A DNA stretch of 33,879 bases from Verrucomicrobia bacterium Opi.OSU.00C (GTDB lineage: Bacteria; Verrucomicrobiota; Verrucomicrobiia; Opitutales; PNEW01), in assembly GCA_002922725.1 (NCBI GenBank), contig PNEW01000013.1, positions 1 to 33,879 on the forward strand, written 5' to 3'. Each line of letters begins with the position of its first letter. Position 1 is the stretch's first letter. Of the stretch, positions 4,200 through 33,028 are shown in pieces. Below the pieces are notes generated by a model. The model was given only the letters and a program-made list of their open reading frames with translations. It did no database searches and was not told the origin of the DNA. The translations under genes were made by a program, and so were the position numbers.

Positions 4200-4228
4200 G
4201 GTATTATATCATTTATAATATTCTATTT

Positions 4229-4783
4229 ATGTTCTTAATTCACCTTTTTTATTTCGCTTTAACCGGTATCGGTCTTGGGTTAGTTTTTTTTTGGCGGAGA
4301 AACGAATTAAACTTATTTGATCCCTTGGGATTCTCCATCGAAGGTTCCCTGATATTTTCAACTCTCACTGTTGCAATAATTTTTACTGTGCACTTCTTGT
4401 CCCGTTGGTCCGTGGGACATTGGTCATCGCTTAAGCAAAGTGCCCACGAACTAAATTGTTGGATCGGTGAAATGAAAAATATTCAAATACTTATTATTTC
4501 TTTAGCTAGTGGAGTCGGAGAGGAGATAATATTTAGAGGGTGGTTATTAAATGAAATAGGCCTAATCTCCTCTTCATTGGTGTTTGGGGTTGTTCACTGG
4601 CCACCAAATAAGCACTGGCGGTTTTGGCCTTTTTTTGCATTTAGTATGGGGATGATTCTCGGTTTACTTTGTATCTGGTCTAATACTTTGATTTACGCGA
4701 TTGTTGTTCATGTTGGTATAAATTTATTAAACCTTCGCTTATTACCAAAAATTGTTAATTCTGGAGAGTACGACAAGAGATAA
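4229..4783 (+). CDS. CPBP-family intramembrane glutamic endopeptidase (Rce1/Abi-like)
   Basis: 184 residues with about six hydrophobic segments (roughly 1-22, 41-60, 85-97, 112-122, 133-150, 153-170). The three CPBP motifs are intact: EEIIFR (E98, E99, R103), FGVVH (H123) and HVGIN (H161, N165). These polar residues form the membrane-buried active site of Rce1-type proteases. Bacterial members process membrane proteins or provide bacteriocin self-immunity, and the substrate cannot be inferred here. A TATAAT at 4214-4219 lies nine bases before the ATG, so the transcript may be nearly leaderless. The T9 run at 4284-4292 lies within the gene and the frame is intact across it. Confidence 0.85.
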   Translation: MFLIHLFYFALTGIGLGLVFFWRRNELNLFDPLGFSIEGSLIFSTLTVAIIFTVHFLSRWSVGHWSSLKQSAHELNCWIGEMKNIQILIISLASGVGEEIIFRGWLLNEIGLISSSLVFGVVHWPPNKHWRFWPFFAFSMGMILGLLCIWSNTLIYAIVVHVGINLLNLRLLPKIVNSGEYDKR

Positions 4784-4823
4784 TTTTCATCAAAAAGTGA
4801 AATCTAAAATTATTGATTATACT

Positions 4824-6188
4824 TTACCTATTTTTAGCTTGAATAAACTTGTGTTGAGGATTTTCAATCCAGAATCCACCAATTGCTATGGCGAAAGGTA
4901 TAAAAATTGAAAAGATGAAGATGGGTTCATATTGACCTAGATATTGTTTAGAGAGGCTAAAAATAAAAGGTCCAAGTGAACTGCTAATAACTGTAATAGA
5001 ACCTGATAAACCGGCTATGACTCCTAAGTGGAAACGCCCATAGTAACGCGGCCAGGAAACACCGTTTAAAACTTGCCAACAGCCTGTGGGAATACCAATT
5101 CCTAAAATAATAAAAACCTTTCCTATTATAGAAGGCATAATGAGCATTCCAGCTGGAGCTATAGCACTAGCAGCAGCCATTAAAATAAGAACATATTTAA
5201 GTCGGGTTTTATCGGCTAACCAACCCGTGATAAAATTTGTGATGACACCGACGATAGCCATAGGGATAAACAGATTCAATGTCATAGCTTTGCTTAATCC
5301 AAGTTCTCCACCAATTGAAATGACATGAAAGGTATACCCAGTGGTGAACATTGCGCTGAAAGCAAAGTTTATATTGAGGAGCCAGAATGAATAGGTTCTG
5401 ATCGCCTGTTCCAGAGTGAATTCATGTACAGTCACCCTATCTGAGTTTTTAATAGGATCTTCTTTAACCGGAGGGAGTTCACCATCCATAAAAAGACCAC
5501 ATTCTTCGGGGTTATCTCGAAATAAAATCCACGCAATAAGAGCACTACCGAAGATGAGTAATAAGCCTAAGATTAACCACGCCCCACGCCACCCACACCA
5601 TTCGATAAGAGCATTAAAAACTTTGGGTGTAATAGTAAAGGCGAATGTAGATAACGTTCCGCTGATTGCCATGATCAGACCTCGTTTTTTATCAAACCAT
5701 TTTCCCATAATATTTTGTGACATAACCCAAAGGAATCCTTGGGCAATTAAGCGGATTAAGAAAAATCCAATTAATACAGTGATAAAGGAAGCGCTCCACC
5801 GATTAATCATAACAATGTTAATGCTAATGAAAGCTGCAATACGGTCTGATTGACTTAATAAAATAAGAGAAAATCCCATACTAATTAAGGCAAAGAAAAT
5901 GCATTTTCTTCCGCCATATCGATCATATAGTTTGCCGGACCAGGGTAGGAGTAGTCCTCCAAGAAGAGTTCCAAGGAAATAGGCGAAGCTTAAATGAACA
6001 CGAGTCAAGCCAAGATGAATTATGAGGTGATCTATAAATACACTTACTCCACTGGTTTGTCCTGGCATCGATGAAATAAAAGAAAGTGTTCCTACTCCAA
6101 CAATTAACCAACCGTAAAAAAATGGCATCCGTGCGGGCGATAAAGGAAAATTAGGTGCCCAAAAGTTTGAACCTTTACTTTTCATCAA
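4824..6188 (-). CDS. Major facilitator superfamily transporter, OFA/monocarboxylate-like
   Basis: 454 residues with about 12 membrane segments. The N-terminus (FFYGWLIVGVGTLSFISSMPGQTSGVSVF) is typical of the oxalate/formate antiporter and monocarboxylate branch. The loop-2 MFS signature appears as GKLYDRYGGRKC, and its counterpart in the second half as GWLADKTRLKY. A long charged central loop (about 222-252, RDNPEECGLFMDGE) separates the two six-helix halves. The substrate is probably a small carboxylate, but this is inference from overall resemblance. It is divergent from the lrp-like gene at 6447, with a 258-base shared upstream region. There is no Shine-Dalgarno before the ATG. Confidence 0.82.
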   Translation of the reverse strand: MMKSKGSNFWAPNFPLSPARMPFFYGWLIVGVGTLSFISSMPGQTSGVSVFIDHLIIHLGLTRVHLSFAYFLGTLLGGLLLPWSGKLYDRYGGRKCIFFALISMGFSLILLSQSDRIAAFISINIVMINRWSASFITVLIGFFLIRLIAQGFLWVMSQNIMGKWFDKKRGLIMAISGTLSTFAFTITPKVFNALIEWCGWRGAWLILGLLLIFGSALIAWILFRDNPEECGLFMDGELPPVKEDPIKNSDRVTVHEFTLEQAIRTYSFWLLNINFAFSAMFTTGYTFHVISIGGELGLSKAMTLNLFIPMAIVGVITNFITGWLADKTRLKYVLILMAAASAIAPAGMLIMPSIIGKVFIILGIGIPTGCWQVLNGVSWPRYYGRFHLGVIAGLSGSITVISSSLGPFIFSLSKQYLGQYEPIFIFSIFIPFAIAIGGFWIENPQHKFIQAKNR

Positions 6189-25268: not shown

Positions 25269-27058
25269 CTAGGCACGTTTCTGAGAGATTTCCAATTGAC
25301 GTGTTGCATGATCTGGTTCAAAAAATCCGTGTAATTGGCGAATACGTGTTGGGTGACGCATTTTTCGCAACGCCTTTGCTTCAATCTGGCGAATGCGCTC
25401 ACGTGTTACATTAAATTGCCGCCCAACTTCTTCCAGAGTTCGACTATAACCATCGACAAGTCCAAAACGTAATGAGAGTACGCGGCGTTCACGCTCTGTA
25501 AGGCTATCTAGTACATCCATAATCTTTTCTCGTAACAAGCTGTAAGCGGTCATATCGTATGGGTTTTCTGCACCTTTATCTTCAATAAAATCTCCGAAAT
25601 TAGTGTCATCACTCTCCCCAACTGGACTTTGTAATGAGATGGGTTGTTGGGCCATTTTCATTATTGATTGAACACGTTCAACAGGTAGTTGCATCTCTTC
25701 TGCAACCTCCTCAGCAGTGGGTTCGTGACCGAGTTCTTGCAATAATTGCTTTTGGACCTGCATTACCTTGTTTAGCGTTTCAATCATATGGACAGGGATA
25801 CGAATTGTACGCGCTTGATCGGCGATCGAACGGGTAATAGCCTGTCTAATCCACCAGGTGGCATAGGTAGAGAATTTATAACCACGGCGATATTCGAATT
25901 TCTCAACTGCTTTCATTAATCCCATATTTCCTTCCTGGATGAGATCAAGGAAGGAGAGCCCCCTATTTGTATATTTTTTTTTGCAATACTAATTACTAGG
26001 CGTAGGTTAGCCTCAACCATTTCTGTTTTTGCTCGGTGCGCATGCCTCATGCCTTTCCGGACTTCCTGAATGATGCGCACTAATTCCTTTGGGTCGATGG
26101 ACATATCGTCCTCTATTTTCTTTAAGCGGTTAAGAATTTTACGAGTATTTATCGATCGATGTTTTTTAGTCCGTGCTTTTTCTGCAAGGTTAAGATTGTC
26201 AAAATGTTCTATAATTTCCTTTTGCAGGGGATCAATAGTTCGAAGAAATCCTTCAAAGACTTTTAACTTGAAGCAGTATTTTCTAAAAATGGGTTTAAGC
26301 GCAACCTGATATTTATTAAACTGTGTAAACGCGCGTTTCTGCCGTATTTTACTTGTTGATTTGGCTATATGTTCAGCCCAGTTCTTATCCATTTTTTCAC
26401 TTATATCTTCAGACTTTTCAATCCACCTAGGGAGGTTCTTAAAATAAATTTCGCGGCTATTTATTTTTTTATCAAGTACTACACGATCAAAGCGCTCTTC
26501 ACGGTTGAGTAATTTATGGGCTAATTGGTTTTGGAATTTGGTTGATAGGCCAACTGAAAATAGCTCATTTTGTGCCTTTTGCTCTGCTGTTTCAATACGT
26601 TTGGATATTGCAACTTCTTCTTCCCTTGTAAGCAGCGGGACTTGACCCATTTGCTTCAAATACATTCGTACTGGATCATCGAGGATATCGAGATGACTAC
26701 TTTTCATCTGTGCCTCGTTATGCTTTTCAAGTCGCTCCTTATACATTTCGACTTCTTCAGCATCAATGATATCGATTTCTAAATTCTCAAGGATGATAAT
26801 AAATTTTTCTATTTCATCAGGAGTGTTAACTGATTTAGGAAGAATTTTATTAATATCTTTAAAAGTTAGGTATCCCTGTTCCTTCGCAAGACGAATAAGT
26901 GCCCGAATTTTATCATTTACTTGTTCTTTTTTGGAACCTGATAAAATTGACTTTCGAGTAGCTTTTTTAACCTTTTTAGCCTTTTTAGCTTTTTTAACCT
27001 TTTTAGCTTTTTTAACCTTTTTCTTGGTTGCTTTCTTTTTTACTTTAGTCTTTGGCAT
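25269..27058 (-). CDS. rpoD: RpoD, housekeeping sigma-70, frame broken at T9 (25974-25982), lysine-rich N-terminus
   Basis: The primary sigma factor directs core RNA polymerase to -35/-10 promoters. Frame 1 (380 codons) covers a lysine-rich head, region 1.2 ([21 protein letters not shown]), a long non-conserved region and region 2.1 ([15 protein letters not shown]). It then runs off frame at a coding-strand A9 (plus-strand T9, 25974-25982). The second frame resumes with [20 protein letters not shown] and includes 2.4/3.0 ([31 protein letters not shown]), 3.1 and 4.2 ([19 protein letters not shown]). The invariant IAKKYTNRG needs A7, so two A are surplus (A10 would also restore frame with an extra Lys). 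The restored length is about 595. The first ~36 residues ([17 protein letters not shown]...) mimic histone tails. It lies eight bases after dnaG, as in the classical dnaG-rpoD operon. Confidence 0.93.
26951..27058 (-). repeat. Lysine/alanine/valine low-complexity repeat encoding the sigma-70 N-terminus
   Basis: The first 36 codons of rpoD consist of K, A, V and T in near-repeats ([14 protein letters not shown]). At DNA level AAAAAGGTTAAAAAAGCT-type units repeat imperfectly. Composition resembles the histone H1-like protein at 15355. Such a tract is prone to length change. Confidence 0.75.
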
Positions 27059-27066
27059 CTGGGGTG

Positions 27067-28909
27067 TTAATTGATTTTACTATTTTGAATAAACGGAATA
27101 TTTTTTTTCATATTTCGCAGTTCGATAATATTTCGCTGAAGTTTTGGAAACTTGTCTGATGGAGAGGGTAAATTAGCAATCTTTTCTTCCAGAATTTTTA
27201 ATCGGTGACGGAGAAATTTTTCAAAAATGGCCTGTACGCAGGCATTAGCAACTTTGATCGGGTTTTCAAATGATCTTTCATCAGCAAGAATGGAGTAATA
27301 GCAATTCTTTTCTTCCTCGTTTTCAAGTAATCGATCAAGATTGTTAATTCCTTCCCAAAGTCCTTGTTGGATGTCTGCAATAACATGCGCGAGGAGCTTT
27401 CCATAAACTAATTCTGTGTCAATCCATTCAATATCAATAATTTCAGCAATGGGTTGGCTTAATACTGGGCTCTGAAAAACGCAACACAGTAGCTCAAATT
27501 CAGCAGTTGTCAACTGTGATGTTACAGGGTTTTTTTTCGTAATCCTGGTTTTTATGAATAGATTTTTTACTTTTTTTCCTTTTAAACCGATTAAAATCAC
27601 CTCTTAACGACATTGGATCCACATTGATGAGTATAGCTGCTTTTTGCAGGTATTCATCTTGAATGACAAGCAGGTCAGATTCATTAATTATTTCAAATAA
27701 CTGTAATAATGCTTCCGCTTTGGCTTGAGGAGAAGGGCTTTTATCGGGCAAAAGGGCCTGGATAAGATAATCGATGGCCGTTAGTGCTTGTTTCTGTAAT
27801 TGGTCAAAAGCTCCCCTCCCTTTTTCTATGAGCAGGCTATCAGGATCAGTCTCTATTGGTAGTACAATGAAGCGAATTTCGAGTCCCACACGCAAAGCCA
27901 TAGGTAGAATTCGTAATGCAGCCTTCTGTCCAGCACTGTCACCATCTAGGACGCAATCAATAGTATTAGTATACCGTTTAAGTAAGAGCAATTGAGCTTC
28001 AGTTATGGATGTTCCCTGTGGAGCAACGGCAGTATTTATCCCATATTGCCAGCACCGTATGGCATCTAATTGACCCTCAACTAGGACAAAATAGCCAACT
28101 TTATCGATATGATGACGAGCCTGATCCAAGCCAAAAATCACTTTACTTTTATAAAAAATAGGGGTTTCTGGTGAATTAATATACTTTGCCTGATGCGTGG
28201 GATTGTCAGTTTGGGTAAATGGAAGTAGACGCGCCGTGAATGCTATCACTTGACCTTTATAATCACGAATCGGAACAAGTAGTCTGTCGCGAAATCTTGG
28301 TTTTAAATTCCTTGGGTCGGTTTCCTGATCACGAAAATAGAAAAGACCACATTTTTTTAGGGCCTTAAGAGAGTAACGTTGTTTCAAAAGTAGCTCTATC
28401 AATTTAGTATCTTTCTGAGGGGCAAAACCGATTTTATACTTTTCTGCAATTTGCATTTTGAATTTTCTCTTCTGTACCCAATAACTTTGAGCTTTTTTTG
28501 AGATTGGCTGTTCGCTCATAAAGATACGATGGTAATAATCACAAGCGCGATCGTGGATTTCTATTATTTCTTTGCGGACAGACCGTGATTCACTAGTTGG
28601 GGCAAACCCCTGCTCATACTCAAGATTTTGGTTAAATCGATTAGCAATTGCCTCAACCGATTCTGTAAATGTCAATTTCTCGTACAATTCGATAAATCTG
28701 AAAATATCCCCAGCGTAATTACTTGAGAAACATTTGAACATGTTTCTCTCAGGGTGGATGAAAAAAGATGGTGTTTTTTCTGTTGTGAATGGGCTCAATC
28801 CAACGAAATTCCGTCCGCTTTTCTTGAGTGAAACTACAGGTGATACTACATCAAAGATATTAACATGATGTTTAATTTCATCGATGCACTTGCGAGAGAT
28901 TCGCGGCAT
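27067..28909 (-). CDS. dnaG: DnaG primase, frame broken near A8 (27530-27537), degenerate zinc site
   Basis: DnaG makes RNA primers for replication. The first frame (469 codons) holds the N-terminal zinc-type domain, the RNAP-like core (KKAQSYWVQKRKF, YKIGFAPQ) and the TOPRIM domain (FVLVEGQLDAIRCWQYGI, DGDSAGQKAALR, TDPDSLL). It ends just past FKRKKSKKSI. The second frame, open from about 27600 to 27067, carries the C-terminal helicase-binding domain (QLTTAEFELLCCVFQSP to the end). Deleting one A of the A8 run (plus-strand T8, 27530-27537) joins them as YEKNPVTSQLTTAEF, giving about 613 residues; the nearby A7 run (27571-27577) is an alternative site. In the CHC2 region GLSPFTTEKTPSF...FKCFSSNYAGD only C60 of the usual C, H, C, C ligands remains. 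Confidence 0.93.
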
Positions 28910-30495: not shown

Positions 30496-31545
30496 ATGGC
30501 TAAATTTCTTACCCTGTGTTTTCTATTTGTTACCTATTACCCACTAGCAGGAGGTGGGTTCTGGGAATCCGAGGAAGAAAGAAGTTCTTATCTTGATTTG
30601 GTATGGGAATACCATTTGGATAATTTTAATTCAAGAAACTATAGTCGAGGTGTTAAAATCCTTTTTGATAACTTTGAAGAAGAAACAAAAAAAATGCTTG
30701 TTCCTGGAAAACTACGAAAAGCCGGGATTAAAATATATACAAATTCAGGTAGTGGAATTGCTACTCCAAAAGAATTAGTAATAGCAGTGATTGATGGATT
30801 AGTTCAACGTGGCTTTAAGAGAAAAGAGCTTTTTATCCTCGATGTCAGTGAACATGATTTGCGGAGTAGTGGATTTGTTCCACCTCTTAGTAAAAAAACG
30901 GATGAAGTTGCTTTCGTCGGTGTTCCGGTTTACATTTTAGAAACTAAAAAATACTATGACAAACTCTGGTACCATGAAAGTCCTTTACCATCACAAAGCC
31001 AGTTAGCGCATGCTACAGAATTGATTGGTGACTATGGTGAACAATTAGGTGACACAGATCGGAAAAGTTATCTTCCCAAGCCATTGTTAACGGATGTTGA
31101 TTTTTGGGTAAACCTGCCAATAGCCCTAGATAACCGTATACTTGGAATAACCGGAGTATTGGCTAATGCGACACTTTGGGCTATTAGCAACCGAGATAGG
31201 TTTTTTGTCAGCCCCGCAAATGGACCTATTGCAATTGCAGAGATAGCGGCTATTCCTGAATTGAAATCAGGATGGGCTTTTTCAATTATCAGTTTGGAAC
31301 GATATCAATTCATTGGAGGGCCAATTTTCAACTCTCTCTATACCCGTTCTGAACCCTTATTATGGATGAGCATAAATCCTGTCATTCTCGACGCATTAAT
31401 GGTCAAACGATTTAAATACCACAAAAAAGAAAATGGATTTAATAAGACCACTAGAAGTAATCAATTATTTAATTATGCCCAGAGTTTGGGGGTAGGGCAT
31501 TATAATCAAAATAGAATACAGTGGATTCAATTACCCCAAAAATAA
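30496..31545 (+). CDS. Exported DUF362-like protein
   Basis: 349 residues with a short signal peptide (MAKFLTLCFLFVTYYPLAGG). The body shows the order of the DUF362 family: an early SGSGIATPKELVIAVIDGL turn, FILDVSEHD, DFWVNLPIALDNRILGITG with the LP...ITG segment, VLANATLW, GPIAIAEIAAIPEL, a YQFIGGPIFNSLYTR motif and a closing WMSINPVILDALMVKRF (DPV..D-like). DUF362 proteins are often fused to ferredoxin domains; here there is no Fe-S cysteine motif, and a secreted form of this size seems typical of Verrucomicrobiota. The function is unknown. It has its own promoter region, divergent from the TPR gene. No Shine-Dalgarno. Confidence 0.6.
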   Translation: MAKFLTLCFLFVTYYPLAGGGFWESEEERSSYLDLVWEYHLDNFNSRNYSRGVKILFDNFEEETKKMLVPGKLRKAGIKIYTNSGSGIATPKELVIAVIDGLVQRGFKRKELFILDVSEHDLRSSGFVPPLSKKTDEVAFVGVPVYILETKKYYDKLWYHESPLPSQSQLAHATELIGDYGEQLGDTDRKSYLPKPLLTDVDFWVNLPIALDNRILGITGVLANATLWAISNRDRFFVSPANGPIAIAEIAAIPELKSGWAFSIISLERYQFIGGPIFNSLYTRSEPLLWMSINPVILDALMVKRFKYHKKENGFNKTTRSNQLFNYAQSLGVGHYNQNRIQWIQLPQK

Positions 31546-31666: not shown

Positions 31667-33028
31667 ATGTCTCTCGAAAGATATCTTGCTAAATCTCGTA
31701 TCATTGAAATCGAAAGTGGTGATCTAAATGGTGCTTTGAGAGAATTATTAAAAGTAGCAACAAAGCGCCTTTCAACAAGACTTTCTTCGAAACGCCTACT
31801 TAGCCAGCTCCTAGATCGTGAAAGTATTATGACAACATATTTAGGGAATGGAGTTGCGATCCCTCATTTGCGGATAAAGATGAAAAGACCTTTTGTATTT
31901 GCGATTGGTCGATGTCGTGAAGGTTTTAAGTATGACGGGGTACCGAAAGGAACAGAAGTTCGCATTTTACTTTTATTTCTTGCATCAAATAAAGTGAAGA
32001 ATTATCTTAGTGTTTTAGCCTCTATTGCCCGCCTCTTTCGTAAAAGAACTCTAATCGATAATATTTTACGTGCGCCCAATTTAGAGGTTTTCCAAGAGAG
32101 AGTTATTCAGGGGCTGAGTGGTTTACCAGTGAAGCCTGGAATACGCCAATCCAGGTTTAATAAACTTTTATTGAAAGAAGGAGAGAAAATTGCTAAGGCC
32201 TCTCGATGTTCGGCAATTCTTATTTTTGGTGATACTTTCAATGGCGGTATAGATTTAAGCCCAGATTTTCCAAAATTCAGGACGGTCATTGTAACACGAT
32301 CGTCTCCCGAGCGACTCCAAGAGCACAATAATGAGACGATGATGATCGAAGTAAAACCCTATTCTAACCACCGTCTTTCACAGTTGCGAAGTGCGGTTTT
32401 AATAGGACTAACACGTGGTGTTTTTAAATATAATGATCGTTTGTGTTGTGTGGCCGGTATATTAGATAGCAATCAATTTGATACATTGGTCGTGGTGGAT
32501 GTTGAACGAGAATTTCAGTCGGTACTCACACGTGAGGCAGATATTTTACCTTCATCTGTTTCATTTGAAGTGCTTGAAAGAATCCTCGCAATTGCCACTG
32601 ATTTGTCACTTGAAGGGCGTGAAGGAAGGTCGATTGGTTGCCTATTTGTTTTAGGTGATACCAAAAAAGTTAATACAATGATAAAATCATTGGTTTTAAA
32701 TCCATTCCATGGCTATAAGGAAGAAGATCGCAATGTATTGAATCCTTTTATGGATGAAACGATCAAAGAGTTATCTTTTATGGATGGAGCTTTCATAATT
32801 CAAGGGAATGGCATTATTGAATCTGCAGGTAGCTTAATTAACACACCTAGTGATTATTATCATGAAATGCCCAGTGGTTTCGGTGCGCGCCATGTTGCTG
32901 CTTCAGCTATCTCACGGGCAACTGATAGCATTGTAATTGTTGTTTCTGCCACTTCAGGTCGAGTAACTTTATTTCGTCATGGTGTAATGTTGCCTCTGAT
33001 TGATAATTCGTTGGGAGGAGTTCAATAA
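31667..33028 (+). CDS. PTS EIIA - PK_C-like - diadenylate cyclase fusion (DacZ-like)
   Basis: 453 residues, three domains. (1) About 1-150: PTS EIIA type 2 (fructose/Ntr), with the phospho-acceptor site [12 protein letters not shown] (H67) and [11 protein letters not shown]. (2) About 165-290: a pyruvate-kinase C-terminal-like alpha/beta domain ([59 protein letters not shown]). (3) About 300-445: a DAC/DisA_N domain with [24 protein letters not shown], the catalytic DGA (373-375) in [18 protein letters not shown], and [13 protein letters not shown] (R408-H409). Domains 2 and 3 together match the archaeal DacZ architecture, while the EIIA is an added N-terminal module. It probably makes cyclic di-AMP from two ATP. 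The phosphorylation state of H67 may regulate it. The third base of RHR is Val, as RHx variants occur in DacZ. No EI or HPr lies nearby. Confidence 0.85.

Follow-up and report, generated by a model that had tools for sequence, protein, structure and literature searches.

Close to the end of the window, i.e., the whole 33,879-nucleotide stretch that was analysed, an ATG-initiated open reading frame on the forward strand (31667..33028) encodes a protein of 453 aa, in which an EIIA domain is followed by a DacZ_P (PK_C-like) domain and a DAC domain. All features of this gene given below lie on the same strand. The PTS_EIIA_2 domain spans residues 25-143 (31739..32095), has an EIIA-Ntr fold by Foldseek, and scored an E-value of 2.2e-16 and 60.6 bits against a Pfam cut-off of 27. 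Within it, H67 (31865..31867) in the motif AIPHLR is the predicted phospho-histidine, judged by conservation among homologues. DacZ_P, which Pfam curates as a 'probable sensor domain', covers residues 165-284 (32156..32518; E 3.8e-15, 56.1 bits, Pfam cut-off 27.4) with a pyruvate-kinase C-terminal-like fold by Foldseek. The DAC catalytic domain (PF02457) covers residues 314-440 (32606..32986; E 2.7e-21, 75.8 bits, Pfam cut-off 27), for which Foldseek returned CdaA and DisA, and it contains the motifs DGA at residues 373-375 (32783..32791) and GARH at residues 406-409 (32882..32893). D373, G374, G406, R408, and H409 were invariant in all 112 homologous loci. P66, H67, and R69 occurred in 111 of 111 loci, a count that is inflated for H67 because part of the set was recruited by a PH-containing pattern. 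In a diverse alignment of 43 sequences, EIIA_2 and DAC were present in all 43 and DacZ_P in 42.

The original prediction had read this protein as an EIIA with an intact phospho-histidine site joined to a DAC domain with DGA and GARH motifs. Both parts were confirmed at the positions it had given, and the EIIA_2 and DAC matches of the domain search it proposed were significant. Its claim that a PK_C-like domain precedes DAC, with an affinity to archaeal DacZ, also agrees with the domain order in Pfam and with DacZ as the best match in NCBIfam. From its sequence, the fusion protein is predicted to be a diadenylate cyclase making c-di-AMP.

The whole-chain AlphaFold2 model, built from the 43-sequence alignment, reached a pLDDT of 81.7 and a pTM of 0.73. 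Its best PDB match in Foldseek was PtsN/EIIA-Ntr (3urr) with a TMt of 0.83, and the next matches were CdaA/DacA, DisA, and CdaM. When the middle domain was modelled alone (pLDDT 77), all top PDB matches listed by Foldseek were pyruvate kinases (E 6e-6, TMq ~0.58), which supports the PK_C-like reading of the original prediction independently of the Pfam name. In pyruvate kinases, the fold of the C-terminal domain binds FBP (PMC6741144); a further metabolite is a possible ligand of the PK_C-like domain.

The gene upstream of the cyclase (30496..31545, forward strand) encodes a protein of 349 aa with a signal-like N-terminus and no match in Pfam or NCBIfam, and in 43 of 66 loci a member of its protein cluster lies upstream of the cyclase. 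The cyclase loci showed no conserved operon that would include PTS or potassium genes. The conserved neighbours were nuoA, Mrp/ApbC, a TolB-like protein, rpoD, and an unknown secreted-like protein. Since none of them is related to c-di-AMP or the PTS, no functional link is drawn from them and operon logic was rejected. On the reverse strand of the window, rpoD (25272-27058) is split into two overlapping frames carrying regions 1.1/1.2 and regions 2-4, and such a frameshift in an essential gene is probably an assembly or sequencing indel. The gene dnaG (27070-28909, reverse strand) looks split too, with the zinc ribbon, DNAG_N, and Toprim located in 27503-28909, while the ORF at 27070-27600 has no Pfam match yet belongs to the same homology cluster as dnaG. 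This looks like a second indel adjoining that of rpoD.

Relatives were identified with a pattern-plus-tblastn scan of genome contigs, which yielded 129, and the best 80 of these 129 were examined. They cover the full length and share 48-61% identity across residues 1-450; 63 of the 80 could be ranked, all of them as Opitutia, and the other 17 carried no rank below phylum. The DacZ_P search returned 59 positive genomes in Opitutales, including the source genome, and 8 in other Verrucomicrobiota families. Outside the order, the fusion also occurs in families f31 and f74, where its PHAR site is intact; in families f45 and f76, DacZ_P-DAC was seen with no EIIA that could be recognised. In an order sample of 62 Opitutales genomes, DAC occurred in 56 (~90%), as a single copy except in one genome with two, and was nearly always found as the EIIA-DacZ_P-DAC fusion. 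The taxonomic survey proposed with the original prediction places the protein in a widespread, lineage-specific class: it is the standard Opitutales cyclase and not a one-off. A second DacZ-type DAC paralogue of ~300 aa without EIIA was observed at two loci, L211 (genome G173) and L164 (genome G419), and stands beside the fusion in G173. As G173 has both kinds, the short DAC of G419 was taken as a separate paralogue and rejected as a case of EIIA loss.

Representatives of the DacD class, a class of the Corrigan & Grundling classification as used by Braun et al. 2019 (PMC6741144), are listed there only from Opitutae/Verrucomicrobia, namely from Lacunisphaera limnophila, Puniceicoccaceae, Coraliomargarita, and Verrucomicrobia and Opitutae bacteria. 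Because Lacunisphaera loci (L052, L055, and L074) carry the EIIA-DacZ_P-DAC fusion and such genomes normally have one DAC, the architecture is, by taxonomy and the single DAC, probably the already catalogued DacD class and so not new. Galperin's 2023 article in J Bacteriol ('All DACs in a row') reportedly describes DacZ_P and classifies these proteins. Literature searches for EIIA-cyclase fusions returned nothing, and no paper testing or discussing EIIA control of a diadenylate cyclase was found. The original prediction knew of no description of such a link; control by the EIIA has apparently never been tested, and the architecture is probably described.

PTS components were counted in the order sample, with EIIA_2 and PTS_EIIC as the EIIA and EIIC classes covered. 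HPr was found in 53 of the 62 genomes, EIIA_2 in 51, the N-domain of EI (EI_N) in 49, and PTS_EIIC in 5. Of 41 genomes whose fusion has an intact H67, 30 have no EIIA_2 domain other than the fused one; PTS_EIIC occurred in none of these 30, and EI together with HPr in 24. EI was also present in 14 of 18 genomes of the relatives sample. The EI frames were mostly ~590-620 aa long; in one relative (G388), the EI of 586 aa scored 560 bits with PTS_I_fam and fell below the cut-off of a longer, 748-position EI model. A seemingly stand-alone EIIA in G395 was rejected, as it is a fusion cut at a contig end. In the source genome, the sole DAC and the sole PTS_EIIA_2 found are those of the fusion protein. 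The original prediction had proposed a search for EI and HPr there, and HPr is present with both a GIHARPA (His15) and a VNAKSIMG (Ser46-type) site. EI was not found, an absence that is not secure in an assembly of 287 contigs and 82.6% completeness. The PF02896 match in this genome sits in a 925-aa frame that, judged by its length, looks like pyruvate phosphate dikinase. What is new here is the genome context: the fused EIIA is usually the sole EIIA_2, EIIC is lacking, EI and HPr make up the PTS, and the EIIA or its histidine is in part lost together with that PTS.

As the fused EIIA is the sole EIIA_2 in most genomes, PtsN-like tasks would fall to it, and the EIIA could be the output of the protein, acting on trans partners such as potassium transporters or kinases while the cyclase and PK_C-like domains tune or co-localise it. 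E. coli PtsN binds TrkA and KdpD (PMC7900238). In line with this reading, family f4 (G149 and G176) has a degenerate fused EIIA and, in addition, a separate 161-aa EIIA whose PHGR site is intact. However, lineages without a fused EIIA keep the cyclase and have no separate EIIA_2, and an N-terminal sensor with a C-terminal DAC is the usual input-output order of DAC proteins. We regard an output role of the EIIA as unlikely.

The preferred reading, in which the EIIA is an input to the cyclase, was followed through the fate of H67 across lineages. In the unbiased order sample, the histidine was kept in 42 of 54 assessable fusions, and families f31 and f74, which are distant, likewise retain it. 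EI and HPr are both missing from several reduced genomes of 0.8-1.0 Mb. Of these, G402, G414, and G424, which belong to one genus, and G415 have lost the EIIA domain, while in G410 it is degenerate and the histidine is missing. All five keep the DG (DGA) and GxRH motifs despite the loss or decay of the EIIA. Given that the DAC motifs persist in lineages that lack an EIIA, catalysis is unlikely to depend on this domain, which is probably modulatory and perhaps restraining. The histidine was intact in 34 of 40 genomes with EI and HPr versus 2 of 7 genomes lacking both (Fisher p 0.005, counted per genome and inflated by kinship). Phylogenetically independent pairs, of which there were only 3-6 (3 supported contrasts), were underpowered and did not decide for or against a co-loss of the histidine with the PTS. 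The co-loss of the EIIA or its histidine with EI and HPr is suggestive only.

Other lineages depart from this pattern. In family f10 (G367, G407, G417, and G428), H67 is replaced by tyrosine in 4 of 4 members, which keep EI and HPr, and G427 also has tyrosine at this position. The four f10 loci are L150, L143, L142, and L137, and no other EIIA_2 was seen in G407 and G428. Conversely, two PTS-less lineages (G391 and G406) keep the PH motif and its histidine without detectable EI or HPr. Both groups would be explained if the EIIA were a structural or oligomerisation module whose phosphorylation is physiologically unused or used in some lineages only. A module of this kind is at odds with the retention of the histidine in 42 of the 54 unbiased fusions and in f31 and f74, and with the outright loss of the EIIA domain in several PTS-less lineages, and we find it rather improbable.

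The surroundings of c-di-AMP itself were assessed in the same 62 genomes. PgpH (PF07698), a domain of the c-di-AMP phosphodiesterase type, occurred in 54 of them, in 52 of 56 DAC-positive versus 2 of 6 DAC-negative genomes (Fisher p 0.0017, uncorrected). The source genome gave no PgpH hit, which its 82.6% completeness may explain. In the 0.8-Mb genome G415, a PgpH domain lies ~2 kb from the EIIA-less cyclase (locus L191, ~2189-2770 and 4210-5091), the sole such closeness noticed. The ydaO riboswitch was absent from 61 of the 62 genomes and was rejected as a c-di-AMP read-out. The one strong hit (L222; G398 C32:6320-6489) is in a genome that is 50% complete and in which no DAC was found. Since ydaO is essentially absent, protein receptors of c-di-AMP are expected. 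The missing riboswitch would also fit a DAC domain that is inactive or makes another product. Against this speak the invariant DG and GxRH residues, the co-occurrence of PgpH with DAC, and the kinship to haloarchaeal DacZ, of which the H. volcanii enzyme is active (PMC6741144), so that such a defect or change of product is very improbable.

We lean slightly towards a mechanism in which phosphorylation of H67 by EI and HPr modulates c-di-AMP synthesis. The fusion protein would belong to the DacZ branch of diadenylate cyclases (DacD class) and act in the cytoplasm, and PEP-derived phosphate would pass from EI to His15 of HPr and on to H67 of the EIIA. The phosphorylation state of H67 may then alter how the DAC domains meet and so set c-di-AMP synthesis, and PgpH would degrade the product in most Opitutales. 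In most members of the order, the cyclase would be the sole EIIA_2-type output of a regulatory PTS without transport, with a likely role in coupling PEP or carbon-nitrogen status to potassium and osmotic control. Control by the PTS is plausible and has indirect support; counting against it are EI and PgpH not being found in the source genome (82.6% complete), the H67Y of f10, the histidine of G391 and G406 without EI or HPr, the degenerate fused EIIA of f4, the few independent pairs that did not bear out the association, and the lack of both a conserved operon and, in 61 of 62 genomes, a ydaO riboswitch. Lineages without the EIIA or its histidine are natural controls for this mechanism. In proteobacteria, K+ uptake and (p)ppGpp enzymes are under the control of PtsN, and c-di-AMP reports K+ elsewhere (PMC7900238, PMC13104625). 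As EIIA control of K+ transport and of nucleotide second-messenger enzymes has precedents, the novelty would lie in the target and not in the type of mechanism.

A fusion found order-wide, and usually as the sole EIIA_2 of a genome, would give a direct signal path from PEP to c-di-AMP. To our knowledge, the determinants of the c-di-AMP level are poorly known for most cyclase families. It is a possibility, which we hold tentatively and rate somewhat below an even chance, that in Opitutales a c-di-AMP synthase is the main or only EIIA output of a PTS without sugar-transport parts, so that EI-HPr-EIIA phosphate flow is turned into a cyclic dinucleotide signal. If true, two regulators of potassium and metabolism that usually occur in different bacteria, the PtsN-type EIIA and c-di-AMP, would be physically joined. 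Each has been described to regulate potassium, in different groups of bacteria (PMC7900238).

Among known systems, archaeal DacZ/CdaZ (H. volcanii, M. jannaschii) resembles the fusion protein in having a PK_C-like domain followed by DAC. The PK_C-like domain directly N-terminal to DAC, which marks the DacZ/CdaZ superfamily, is found in the fusion protein. A direct match to haloarchaeal dacZ was 31-34%, the C-terminal 200 residues being ~32% identical, and activity is on record for H. volcanii DacZ (PMC6741144). The archaeal DacZ proteins examined are without EIIA, unlike the fusion protein, which scored far below the cut-off of the haloarchaeal DacZ equivalog NF041371 (105.3 versus 430 bits). 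In addition, the Haladaptatus dacZ has the N-domain DACZ_N (PF19294) and no DacZ_P, whereas the fusion protein has no PF19294 match. With PtsN/EIIA-Ntr, it shares the fold (TMt 0.83), the PH(x)R active site, and a regulatory PTS without EIIC, while it stayed below the cut-off of the PtsN equivalog TIGR01419 (45.9 versus 138.7 bits). PtsN is not fused to a cyclase, and the EI of PTS-Ntr is the longer, GAF-bearing PtsP, whereas the EI of the relatives is of the classical kind (~590 aa). CdaA, CdaS, CdaM, and DisA share the DAC catalytic domain and its motifs with the fusion protein but have other partner domains and matched it only weakly in NCBIfam, with at most 38 bits as against 105 bits for DacZ.
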